Shown in pieces: positions 5,632 to 7,810 of a stretch of 22,758 nucleotides of DNA. Made by a program: the position numbers and the translations under genes. Below the pieces are notes generated by a model, which worked only from the letters and a program-made list of their open reading frames with translations, was not told the origin of the DNA and made no database searches. How positions within the stretch are numbered: position 1 is the first letter of the stretch; the number at the start of each line of letters is the position of its first letter. Location: the IMG/VR virus record IMGVR_UViG_3300042691_003588, positions 1-22,758 of that record; one strand, given 5' to 3'. Source of the stretch: a virus.

Positions 5632-5660
5632 ATGTTAACCTATCTTAATTCCAAATGCAA
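5632..5660 (-). promoter_or_regulatory. Leftward early promoter with degenerate operator
   Basis: On the minus strand: -35 TTGCAT (5660-5655), spacer of 17 bp, -10 TAACAT (5637-5632). ATTAAGA-TA-GGTTAAC (5649-5634) spans the spacer and the -10. It keeps the TTAAGA half-site exactly, while the second half is altered relative to the clean palindrome at 2981-2996. It should drive the 69-residue protein, ParB-like, SSB-like and exonuclease genes. Confidence 0.7.
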
Positions 5661-5675
5661 ACTTTATTTGAATTA

Positions 5676-5704
5676 TTGCGGTTGTAGCCAAGGTCTGTTA
5701 AGAT
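5676..5704 (+). promoter_or_regulatory. Repressor promoter predicted to give a leaderless transcript
   Basis: TTGCGG (5676-5681), 17-bp spacer, TAAGAT (5699-5704). The expected start, seven bases after the -10, falls on the A of the repressor ATG at 5711, and no ribosome site is present. The -10 lies within a GTTAAGA half-site (5697-5703), suggesting the repressor could control its own gene. The two divergent -35 boxes (5655-5660 and 5676-5681) are 15 bp apart. Confidence 0.55.
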
Positions 5705-5710
5705 ACCCTA

Positions 5711-5941
5711 ATGAATCCAACAGCAATTATTAACATTTTGGGTGGGGCCACCAAGGTTGCAAAACTTTGTGGAGTTTCTGTTCCAGCGGTATCTATGTGG
5801 CAAAAAAGCGACATTCCGCGCGATAAATTGATATTTTTGGCGGCAACGTTGGAACGCGAAACAAACGGGCTAATTACTCGCAAAACTTTATTTCCCACGA
5901 CTTATGGGATTATTTGGCCGGAGTTGCACAGCAAACAATAA
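5711..5941 (+). CDS. Cro/YdaS-type helix-turn-helix repressor
   Basis: A 76-residue protein. Residues about 10-33 (GGATKVAKLCGVSVPAVSMW) form a clear helix-turn-helix. The end, TRKTLFPTTYGIIWPEL, matches the 'R-x-x-LFP-x-x-x-x-x-IWPEL' tail of YdaS/Cro-like phage regulators. It lies alone on the plus strand between divergent promoters, the classical place for a phage repressor or Cro. It is the best candidate to bind the GTTAAGA-N2-TCTTAAC palindromes in the three early promoters. No peptidase domain is present, so RecA-stimulated self-cleavage of the LexA/CI type is not expected. Whether it acts as a lysogenic repressor or an early-gene shut-off factor cannot be told from sequence. Confidence 0.8.
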   Translation: MNPTAIINILGGATKVAKLCGVSVPAVSMWQKSDIPRDKLIFLAATLERETNGLITRKTLFPTTYGIIWPELHSKQ

Positions 5942-5953
5942 ACCGGTTATACT
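5924..5953 (+). promoter_or_regulatory. Predicted promoter for the structured small RNA
   Basis: TTGCAC (5924-5929), 18-bp spacer, TATACT (5948-5953; five of six bases of the consensus -10). The expected start is about 5960, five bases before the first paired strand of the RNA. The -35 lies inside the last codons of the repressor gene. The -35 resembles the TTGCAT used at the early promoters. Confidence 0.5.
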
Positions 5954-5959
5954 GTGCTG

Positions 5960-6089
5960 GCAGATTGAACCCTGCGTAGTACAAATAATCGGTAAAAAGA
6001 CCCTATAGGGTTGCTTTGAGCGTTTAGGTAATACTACCGATTTATTACTTAAGCGGGTTCAACTTAGAGCAACCTTATGGGGTTTTTTT
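5960..6089 (+). ncRNA. Probable ~130-nt structured small RNA with two alternative folds
   Basis: Three complementary pairs occur in the order A-B-C-B'-A'-C'. A is 5965-5972 with 6055-6062 (8 bp, extended by GC after a bulge). B is 5987-5994 with 6035-6042 (8 bp). C is 5994-6020 with 6063-6089 (27 contiguous pairs including a few G-U). A/B and C/C' cross each other. With no linker between the strands they cannot both form fully, so the RNA should switch between a nested hairpin and a long terminator stem. It has its own predicted promoter and ends in a seven-base T-run. No open frame or known RNA family is recognised. The 206-base gap between the repressor and the next possible gene is mostly taken up by it. 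Confidence 0.6.
5994..6089. terminator. Intrinsic, probably bidirectional terminator with 27-bp stem
   Basis: The arms 5994-6020 and 6063-6089 pair without interruption, and the 3' arm ends GGGGTTTTTTT. On the other strand the arm ends in TTTTT (complement of 5994-5998), so it could stop transcription from either side. The 42-base loop contains strands B' and A', which can pair upstream instead. Confidence 0.7.
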
Positions 6090-6147
6090 ATTTCTGCCGT
6101 ACTTCTCACGATAGCAATGGGGTTAAATCGCCCGCTAGAAAGAAAAG

Positions 6148-6246
6148 ATGGGCTGGTTTACACCTAACAGCAAGCCCCGCGAACTTGAGTGGGTATCGCA
6201 CAAGACGGACAGGACAATGGTGATAGACAACCTGACCATCGAATGA
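6148..6246 (+). CDS. Possible small protein (32 aa)
   Basis: The ATG at 6148 opens a frame beginning MGWFTPNSKPRELEW and ending NLTIE, with TGA at 6244-6246. The composition (Trp, Pro, charged residues) looks protein-like. Only a weak purine tract (AGAAAGAAAAG) precedes it. The stop overlaps the ATG of another short frame at 6243. No family or promoter is recognised. It fills part of the otherwise empty 6090-6335 stretch. Confidence 0.35.
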   Translation: MGWFTPNSKPRELEWVSHKTDRTMVIDNLTIE

Positions 6247-6386
6247 ACACTACCTTCGGGAGCATTAGTTTGGCAAAAGCCAAATGGATGGGGTGCTATC
6301 ACCTTTGGGGAATCTATGACAAAAAAACAACACTAAGGGTAAATCCCTATAAAATAACTGTTGCATTGTTAAGATTGCTTAACTAA
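6243..6386 (+). CDS. Doubtful small protein overlapping early promoter B (47 aa)
   Basis: The ATG shares bases with the previous stop (ATGA), which argues for coupling. The frame begins MNTTFGSISLAKAKWMG. However, its last third reads through the AGGG box, the -35 and the operator of promoter B, so the C-terminal sequence (LLRLLN) is dictated by control DNA. It is either a real gene whose 3' end was replaced when the promoter module was copied here, or a chance frame. Confidence 0.25.
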   Translation: MNTTFGSISLAKAKWMGCYHLWGIYDKKTTLRVNPYKITVALLRLLN

Positions 6387-6389
6387 ACT
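6361..6389 (+). promoter_or_regulatory. Rightward early promoter B with operator in its spacer
   Basis: TTGCAT (6361-6366), 17-bp spacer, TAAACT (6384-6389). The spacer holds GTTAAGA-TT-GCTTAAC (6368-6383), one base from the perfect palindrome of copy A. ATAAAATAA (6349-6357) upstream is UP-element-like. It should drive the long rightward early operon from 6432. Confidence 0.78.
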
Positions 6390-6394
6390 GGTAA

Positions 6395-6431: not shown

Positions 6432-6719
6432 ATGTACGACCAAACAGCACAAAAAGCCGCAATTGCAATTAGAAAAGCAATGTATAAAAACCCAGCATGG
6501 CACGTTGGCCGCCATAGCGATGGCACACCAGCCCTTGACATTGACGCGATGGAGCGCGAACTTGAGGACGGTTTAATTGAAGGCTGGCTCGGTATCAAAG
6601 AAGTTGAGGCCTGCACCTTGTCACAATGGTCTTGCGCGATGGATTGGTTAATTTCCCAAGAGCGTAACGCACACTGTGAATCTGACCGCTTTGATTACAC
6701 CAACCGAATTGACCGATAA
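6432..6719 (+). CDS. First protein of the rightward early operon, hypothetical (95 aa)
   Basis: The ATG at 6432 follows AAAGGAG by seven bases, in the leader shared with copy A. The protein is acidic in its middle (IDAMERELEDGLIEGWLG) with several Trp residues (NPAWHVG, LSQWSCAMDWL). It has no signal peptide or membrane segment and no family is recognised. As the first product of an operator-controlled early operon it is a reasonable candidate for a host-takeover or regulatory protein, but that is inference from position. Confidence 0.75.
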   Translation: MYDQTAQKAAIAIRKAMYKNPAWHVGRHSDGTPALDIDAMERELEDGLIEGWLGIKEVEACTLSQWSCAMDWLISQERNAHCESDRFDYTNRIDR

Positions 6720-7139: not shown

Positions 7140-7436
7140 ATGAACGCATACGAATTAGCAGATGAATTGCATGAAGATTTGCAATGGATAGTTACATCAA
7201 ATACCGACCTACCAAGTAGACTAGTTTCAGCAATCAATATGCTTCGCCAACAAGCAGACCTCATACGCAATTTGCAAAAGTCACTTGGCTTCAAAAACAG
7301 TGGTTATGAAACTATTAATTTGACACCACAAACAAAGCCATTAACTGATGAGGAAATTCTTAACGAATGGCTTGGAAACGACAGAAATTTTTATTATTTT
7401 GCTAGAGCAATAGAAGAAAGGCATGGGATTAAATGA
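7140..7436 (+). CDS. Hypothetical early protein (98 aa)
   Basis: The ATG follows the preceding TAA with no gap. The N-terminal half is helical and acidic (YELADELHEDLQWIV, LVSAINMLRQQADLIRNLQK). The C-terminal half contains PLTDEEILNEWLGNDRNFYY and AIEERHGIK, a segment resembling short C-terminal motifs of several phage proteins of unknown function ('I...FARAIE..HGI'). It overlaps the next gene by four bases. No function is assigned. Confidence 0.7.
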   Translation: MNAYELADELHEDLQWIVTSNTDLPSRLVSAINMLRQQADLIRNLQKSLGFKNSGYETINLTPQTKPLTDEEILNEWLGNDRNFYYFARAIEERHGIK

Positions 7437-7810
7437 GTTTTGAATCTTTTTATAGCCTATACCCACGCAAAATAGGCAAGCGTGCGGCAGAAAAATCGTG
7501 GAACCGACTCACCAAGGACGAGCAAGCCGAGGCTTTGGCGGCACTACCAACGCACATCGCGTATTGGAAGTTTAAGCAAACAGAGAAGGACTACATTTGC
7601 CACCCTGCTACTTGGTTAAACCAAGGCAGATGGGAAGATGAGTTGGAGTTTGAGCGCGCTAAAAAGCCTGAGTTGCCTTGGTATAGCACCAACGAACTAA
7701 CCCTTAAAAAAGCGGCAGAAGTCGGTGTAACACCGTATGCCGGCGAGGATTGGCCAACGCTACGGACTAGAATCAGTAACCAAATTAAAAGGCTGGAAGA
7801 GCAGTTGTGA
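7433..7810 (+). CDS. Phage replication-associated domain protein (125 aa)
   Basis: The sequence matches a domain that usually ends phage replication initiator or helicase-loader proteins: FESFYSLYPRKIGKRAAEKS, W-N-R-L-T-K-D-E-Q, then a helix, AYWKFKQTEKDYICHPATWL and NQGRWEDEL. Here it stands alone, without the DNA-binding N-terminal domain those proteins carry, followed by about 45 further residues. It is probably involved in replisome loading. Location in the early operon with RusA and nucleases agrees. The exact role is inferred from domain resemblance only. Confidence 0.6.
   Translation: MSFESFYSLYPRKIGKRAAEKSWNRLTKDEQAEALAALPTHIAYWKFKQTEKDYICHPATWLNQGRWEDELEFERAKKPELPWYSTNELTLKKAAEVGVTPYAGEDWPTLRTRISNQIKRLEEQL

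Follow-up and report, generated by a model that had tools for sequence, protein, structure and literature searches.

Downstream of a small regulator gene in a phage genome lies a stretch of about 130 nucleotides, here termed RNA1, whose complementary segments can pair in two ways, one of which produces a long terminator helix. What kind of element is this, and is the alternative pairing of use to the phage? The DNA is a virus record of IMG/VR (IMGVR_UViG_3300042691_003588), analysed over its full 22,758 nucleotides (the window). RNA1 extends from about 5959 to about 6090, directly after a rightward gene (5711–5941) for a small Cro/YdaS-type regulator (Pfam P22_Cro, E 4e-9); recombination-type genes run leftward, and a replication-initiation-like gene (7433–7810) follows RNA1. 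We conclude that RNA1 (~135 nt) is an undescribed RNA family, abundant in freshwater phages and placed at a key early control point.

Two simpler identities were rejected. ARAGORN found no tRNA, and no tRNA-like or tmRNA-like element was found at RNA1. A mobile DNA element with GCAGA..TCTGC ends does not fit either, as a record normally contains a single copy at a single site; what look like second copies turn out to be alleles at wrap-around contig ends, or palindrome shadows on the opposite strand.

Elsewhere around the regulator gene, TTAAG..CTTAA-like dyads are repeated at 5634–5648, 5693–5708 and 6369–6383 and are possible Cro operators. A promoter-like TTGCAT-N17-TAAACT at about 6362–6390, 5′ of an ORF at 6432, is also flanked by such dyads.

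Structure and folding of RNA1

Read 5′ to 3′, RNA1 consists of a hairpin (P1) with segment A in its loop, a linker that carries B, then C, D, B′, D′, A′ and C′, a U-run and the 3′ strand of a further helix, P0 (Table 1). A preliminary description had proposed the A/A′ and B/B′ helices of 8 bp each, a 27-bp C/C′ helix ending in seven T residues, and a promoter. All are present, the C/C′ helix being contiguous over 27 bp only when G-U pairs are allowed; helix D, the P1 hairpin and the P0 pairing had been missed. The predicted minimum free energy is −57.8 kcal/mol, against a mean of −27.9 for shuffled sequences (z = −8.5), and none of 200 shuffles is as stable. The mature fold leaves A (in the P1 loop), A′ (in the bulge), B and B′ (in the apical loop) free of pairing, and all four are compatible with P1, C and D.

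Table 1. Positions of RNA1 elements and neighbouring features in the window.
Feature	Position	Strand	Remarks
Promoter-like TTGCAC-N18-TATACT	5924–5953	+	Read directly; TTGCAC 5924–5929, 18-nt spacer, TATACT 5948–5953; predicted start ~5959–5960
P1 hairpin GCAG[AUUGAACC]CUGC	5960–5975	+	Shows A in an 8-nt loop; stem 5960–5963 with 5972–5975
A	5965–5971	+	7-nt kissing loop; eighth pair 5972/6055 possible
A TTGAACCC with A′ GGGTTCAA	5965–5972 with 6055–6062	+	8 bp
B AATCGGTA	5987–5994	+	In P1-to-C linker, long linkers only; own-versus-swapped test
C	5994–6020	+	Ascending strand of terminator helix; part able to fold as local hairpin ACCCTATAGGGT
D	6021–6033	+	Ascending strand of upper hairpin; 13 pairs, 9 with both-side changes
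B′ TACCGATT	6035–6042	+	Apical loop of D; own-versus-swapped pairing test
D′	6043–6055	+	Descending strand of upper hairpin; covariation
A′	6056–6062	+	7-nt bulge immediately 5′ of C′; 0–1 nt from C′ in all five types
C′ and T7 run	6063–6089	+	Intrinsic terminator; pairs with C 5994–6020
P0 3′ strand UCUGCC	6093–6098	+	Past the U-run; pairs with RNA1 5′ end 5959–5964
RNA2	6098–6350	+	Conserved second structured RNA in tandem; ~250 nt

Folding was modelled with a nested energy model on 87 members. When the RNA ends at A′, the mean probability of A/A′ is 0.90. When it ends in the U-run, C/C′ reaches 0.92 with P1 at 0.64, and A/A′ drops to 0.03. Extension past the U-run lets the 5′ end pair with UCUGC (P0 0.79), and P1 falls to 0.16. 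These values are in keeping with the refolding during transcription that had been suggested for the RNA. In the window the terminator fold is far more stable than the alternative (−60.8 versus −44.9 kcal/mol), so a lock formed by A and B can win only kinetically. The nested model ignores pseudoknots and kissing contacts, and in one of the RNA1 types described below (type II) a stable P1 of 5–10 bp leaves a kiss of just 7 bp, a contact beyond what secondary-structure models can score.

The two folds had also been held to exclude each other. This is supported, but not as base competition: A, B and C share essentially no nucleotides, the sole overlap being base 5994, and the inferred exclusion is topological. 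The A contact is best seen as a loop–bulge kiss from hairpin P1.

Covariation, matched alleles and five RNA types

All RNA1 helices covary across homologues. In an alignment of 37 diverse homologues (A1), from which a covariance model was built, 97.4% of paired cells are pairable, compared with 83.5% after shuffling and 34–56% with slid partners. Both-side changes occur at all seven pairs of the A/A′ core, at 9 of 13 D pairs and at 7 of 18 C pairs, and the P1 stem is paired in 100% of cells. G-U cells number 235 and A-C cells 9, which identifies the plus-strand transcript as the constrained molecule. Failure of the A, B and C pairings in homologues had been named as the finding that would refute the original proposal; they are kept, with compensatory changes, in more than 100 homologues.

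The A and B contacts are specific to each phage. A scores 7.0 with its own A′ and 3.5 when A′ is swapped between phages; the corresponding values for B with B′ are 7.0 and 4.0, and a B/B′ score of at least 6 is reached by 67 of 78 own pairs and 8% of swapped pairs. We count 23–28 A/A′ alleles and dozens of B/B′ alleles. Close relatives that are identical outside A/A′ differ at 1–4 positions per side, with the changes matched. Several near-identical pairs or sets differ only in A and A′, again matched (L128/L099/L058, L087/L073, L025/L024 and L161/L019, in our own locus numbering), and all eight differences between L131 and L126 over 132 nt fall within A/A′. A few members, such as L109 and L157, carry a single mismatch. 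A U-turn motif, UNR, occupies loop positions A2–A4 in 90 of 91 type I members (the window's type) while the surrounding positions vary, and 12 of 23 type I alleles have the full YUNR.

Two wrap-around contigs, L170/L171 (44.4 kb) and L172/L173 (35.7 kb), carry different RNA1 alleles at their ends within flanks that are 94–96% identical, which indicates exchange or rapid evolution of the locus within populations; the L172 RNA is of a different type without B.

P0 also covaries: GCGGA accompanies TCCGC in six of six cases, and the flanking pair is G-C in 35 and A-T in 28 of the 91 type I members. Most members were retrieved with a search pattern that included the P0 tail, C[CT]GC (the pattern for the 3′ part of RNA1 fixes TTTTTCTATTTCYGC), so tail conservation in them is by construction; the regulator-protein loci and two sets fetched by RNA2 patterns are free of this bias. 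P0 is not universal: types II and V, and part of type I, have it only weakly or lack it.

Diverged RNAs at the same site share almost no sequence with the window; together with the window's type they make up five types that follow one plan. A 5′ hairpin presents a loop of 8–10 nt, 7–9 bases of which are complementary to an A′ stretch; A′ ends 0–1 nt before the descending strand of a 21–27-bp terminator helix, with a hairpin between. The P1 stems are unrelated among types (GCAG/CUGC, GGUAUUGAG/CUCGAUACC, CAAGGA/UCCUUG and UCGUUG/CAAUGG), and such wholly different stems support P1 as a genuine hairpin.

Some types lack B, and its presence follows the length of the linker between P1 and C. The 19 RNAs with linkers of 0–7 nt have no B helix, whereas nearly all of the 60 with linkers of 11–23 nt have one; long linkers without B are hardly seen. 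By our own estimate, 21–27 bp of C/C′ span about 60–75 Å at 2.8 Å per bp. With a linker of 0–7 nt, A/A′ in cis cannot coexist with the full C/C′ helix. A long linker lets P1 reach A′, and there B, at the foot of C and paired with the far D loop, makes the folds exclusive again. In one clade (L256, L257, L264, L101 and L209) the B helix has grown to 16–18 positions and also pairs with the D′ strand, so that it competes directly with D. The linker rule is, in our reading, the best comparative sign that selection maintains the incompatibility of the A and B contacts with the closed terminator. The argument is partly circular, since B can fit only where the linker is long enough; what carries weight is the scarcity of long linkers without B.

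Promoter-like sequence, tandem RNA2 and distribution

A −10 box (TATACT, TATAAT, TACACT or TACAAT) lies 6–9 nt 5′ of RNA1 in 82 of 91 homologues, and the other nine have CATAAT or near variants; the box is kept despite different upstream genes among the phages. Because the box precedes nearly all members and the terminator is kept, RNA1 is likely to be a discrete RNA, a judgement made without transcript data. The earlier picture of a separate ~130-nt RNA gene thus holds for its boundaries, with inferred start and end, but RNA1 does not stand alone. A second structured RNA, RNA2, starts 0–4 nt past the RNA1 tail, and no promoter-like site was found between the two in the window.

RNA2 of the window's type has 43 predicted pairs, 14 with both-side changes; several of its hairpins covary, and it is not in Rfam. 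Among 72 loci fetched only by RNA2 patterns (two sets), RNA1 lies immediately 5′ of RNA2 in 67. The remaining five comprise two without upstream sequence (L192 and L225), two of a diverged type (L187 and L189) and one not separately inspected (L220). In many relatives the place of RNA2 is taken by Betaproteobacteria-1 (RF02932), whose matches begin just past the RNA1 tail. RNA1 types and RNA2 types are shuffled independently of each other.

RF02932 was observed at this place in L003 (5383–5504), L004, L011, L012 and L039; in L039 it directly follows the regulator gene and no RNA1 was seen. At least three further unrelated blocks (CACCCGAAACGACAGGGTG.., CTAGCCCGT.. and GTGAGGAAAGAGAAAACACC..) replace RNA2 in other loci (L049, L053, L089, L092, L098, L109, L110, L117 and L163). 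A search for RF02932 homologues in phage and plasmid records gave none that were useful.

Small samples of IMG/VR alone contain RNA1 homologues on more than 100 phage contigs. A regulator-protein search returned 41 IMG/VR loci, and RNA1 directly follows the gene in most of those with closer regulators. A pattern on the 3′ part of RNA1 matched at least 120 contigs, many of them true members; the parsed set contains 91 distinct sequences of the window's type, and the covariance model built on 37 of these detects RNA1 in 48 of 50 records. A DNA-similarity search of isolate phages found no RNA1. The sole copy in an isolate, of a diverged type V, was reached through its RNA2 in MW202674, a related complete podovirus with a 36.6-kb circular genome in which neither an integrase nor CI is annotated. 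When 84,980 bacterial and archaeal host species, one genome each, were scanned once, the sole outcome was a 3.5-kb RNA1 contig, probably misbinned; a prophage of sequenced hosts was rejected on this result. That contig (L169; JAURIG010000133.1, 3,490 bp, from a Bacteroidota MAG) has RNA1 in full and probably comes from a phage, misbinned with the MAG.

The statement that no known RNA family is recognizable holds: Rfam 15 has no match to the window at gathering score, and searches at E values up to 5 returned only chance matches below cut-off, such as mir-454. Across 13 relatives the only Rfam match was RF02932, 3′ of RNA1, and there was no C4 match in the window or relatives.

Other repeated, structured-looking non-coding stretches (..CTTGGCAGGCA.. 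and ..TGCTTTATCGAAGC..) follow the regulator gene in the more remotely related loci L034–L042; the RNA1 covariance model does not match them.

Proposed conditional termination and competing readings

The interpretation that we tentatively place first, with a little less than even confidence, is that RNA1 is a conditional terminator (attenuator) that heads an early RNA1–RNA2 unit and carries a kissing lock in cis; its function is inferred, and transcript data are lacking. As inferred from the conserved order of elements and from folding, P1 would form first and present A in its U-turn loop. When A′ and B′ emerge from the polymerase, A would kiss A′ and B would pair with B′, tethering the stretch upstream of C to the bases immediately preceding C′. 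C/C′ could then zip fully only by tearing these contacts apart, because full closure carries P1 and B more than 20 bp from A′ and B′. Were the lock to hold while the U-run is made, the polymerase would read into RNA2 and the 5′ end would pair with UCUGC to form P0; were it to fail, C/C′ would form and an RNA of about 130 nt would be released. In the most speculative step, the released RNA, with A, A′ and B′ unpaired, might bind transcripts of its own allele while they are still being made. That would undo the cis lock in them and tip the balance towards termination, making each allele its own regulator.

We rank the attenuator first because it explains together the position of A′ beside C′, the B/linker rule, P0, which uses sequence made only on read-through, and RNA2. 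The helix covariation, the near-identical RNAs whose A and A′ change in step, the modelled refolding and the lack of a promoter-like site ahead of RNA2 also speak for it. An attenuator should have a terminator in its leader, and C/C′ with T7 is conserved in all types; it should also have a conserved alternative pairing, which the covarying A/A′ and B/B′ provide, their exclusion of the terminator being a geometric inference. The UNR motif satisfies what is expected of antisense kissing-loop RNAs, as the YUNR U-turn is described as ubiquitous in loop–loop antisense pairs (PMC4485353). Several observations count against it. Classical attenuators have shared bases between their alternative strands and RNA1 does not; the ~20-nt linker of type I would be long enough for A/A′ to outlast C/C′ formation, leaving only B to exclude it; P0 is patchy across types; no regulator is known; and both the type II kiss of only 7 bp and the stability of the terminator fold disfavour the lock. 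No enrichment of trans targets of A or A′ was found elsewhere in the phage, and matches to B in a short-word search were somewhat raised without clear enrichment.

The allele series also allows other readings. Possibly, though we think it rather unlikely, the 7-nt self-complementary segment (plus a further 7–8 nt) is a barcode by which the RNA recognizes only its own allele, in cis and in trans; alleles would be swapped as matched pairs while the rest of RNA1 stays constant, and co-infecting related phages would each count and control their own early transcription. It is unlikely that RNA1 is instead a discrete small RNA acting as a self-specific homodimer or oligomer, in which cis pairing is irrelevant. 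Two antiparallel molecules would make two A/A′ and two B/B′ contacts, and pairs would drift because only the self-match matters. The exposure of A, A′, B and B′ in the mature fold suits this arrangement, as does the inability of short-linker RNAs to pair A with A′ in cis once mature. Kissing-loop phage RNA oligomers are known: ROOL, GOLLD and OLE are phage or bacterial RNAs with covarying kissing loops that form homo-oligomers (PMC12286853). They are much larger than RNA1 and often lie near tRNA islands, and we found no sequence relation. Self-assembly moreover leaves unexplained the RNA2 tandem, a P0 strand past the U-run and the absence of B exactly where linkers are short. Less likely again is a role in immunity, with RNA1 acting in trans as P4 CI or P1 C4 do: made by a resident phage, it would pair with the nascent RNA1 of an incoming phage that shares its allele and halt that phage's early region. 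Many matched alleles in otherwise near-identical RNAs, the U-turn loop and the differing alleles at wrap-around contig ends would be expected of it, but it is weakened by the absence of any sign of lysogeny, given the single doubtful contig in the host scan and MW202674 without annotated integrase or CI. C4 pairs at the ribosome-binding site of a downstream ORF, and no such site is found at RNA1, where A′ and B′ lie inside the RNA with no ORF start beside them.

The remaining readings dispense with specific recognition. That RNA1 is a mere strong terminator insulating the cro unit from downstream units is improbable. The intrinsic terminator is strong and conserved, and A and B could be by-products, for instance of quasi-palindrome correction in the DNA, in which one arm is copied onto the other; a co-change of A and A′ without other changes is the outcome expected of template-switch correction of an inverted repeat. 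Such correction would not select which stretches remain matched, and a bare terminator needs no P1, UNR, A′ fixed beside C′ in five types, B in long linkers or conserved promoter. Least probable of all, in our view, is that RNA1 serves as a decoy or structured target for a host protein such as ProQ or NusA, or that RNA1 and RNA2 form one larger RNA whose U-run is an internal loop. The long hairpin with a U-tail, the nearly constant adjacency of RNA2 and the enclosure of RNA1 as a domain by P0 would agree with one or other version, yet the terminator is canonical in all types, and hypervariable paired segments are unexpected for a fixed protein site.

Tests of membership leave RNA1 as a new family that resembles the pT181, IsrK and P4 systems and belongs to none of them. 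The antisense attenuators of pT181 and pIP501 likewise combine a leader, an intrinsic terminator, an alternative fold and hairpin-loop kissing, with specificity from a few loop bases (PMC3753616). RNA1 differs in having the matching loop in the same RNA, on the 5′ hairpin P1, so that no opposite-strand antisense gene is needed, and what it is inferred to control is another structured RNA, not a rep gene. The phage RNA IsrK, encoded by prophage Gifsy-1, is likewise transcribed from a promoter of its own and ended by an intrinsic terminator; some transcripts continue past it, and a second RNA species arises downstream (PMC4825925). That a phage RNA can exist in both terminated and read-through forms counts in favour of the attenuator reading. 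The IsrK read-through product is an mRNA, whereas RNA2 is non-coding. We know of no IsrK counterpart to A/A′ and B/B′ locks with an allele series.

The preliminary description had likened the locus to lambda OOP and P1/P7 C4, and this survives only as a similarity of working style. OOP-type RNAs run opposite to, and overlap, a regulatory gene; RNA1 shares the strand of cro and begins past its stop codon. P4 CI and P1/P7 C4 are, like RNA1, short RNAs from a phage leader that is not translated, and they are complementary to sites within that leader; P4 CI acts through premature termination (PMC4825925), a point in favour of the immunity reading. They are processed from the leader, unlike RNA1, and the RNA1 phage group shows no lysogeny. 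The put RNA of HK022 is another early-region phage element that bears on termination (PMC9378689), but put suppresses pausing and termination during later transcription and RNA1 contains the terminator itself.

Should the attenuator reading hold, RNA1 would represent attenuation kept open by a kissing contact within one RNA and not by shared strands, and its natural orthogonal alleles could serve as ready-made RNA regulators. Should the barcode reading hold, it would offer an explanation at the RNA level, open to test, of how co-infecting virulent phages recognize self. Betaproteobacteria-1, although directly 3′ of RNA1 in many relatives, is a separate element whose model does not match RNA1, and the RNA1 locus supplies a genomic setting for this orphan Rfam family. 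In MW202674, small minus-strand ‘hypothetical’ ORFs are annotated across RNA2.
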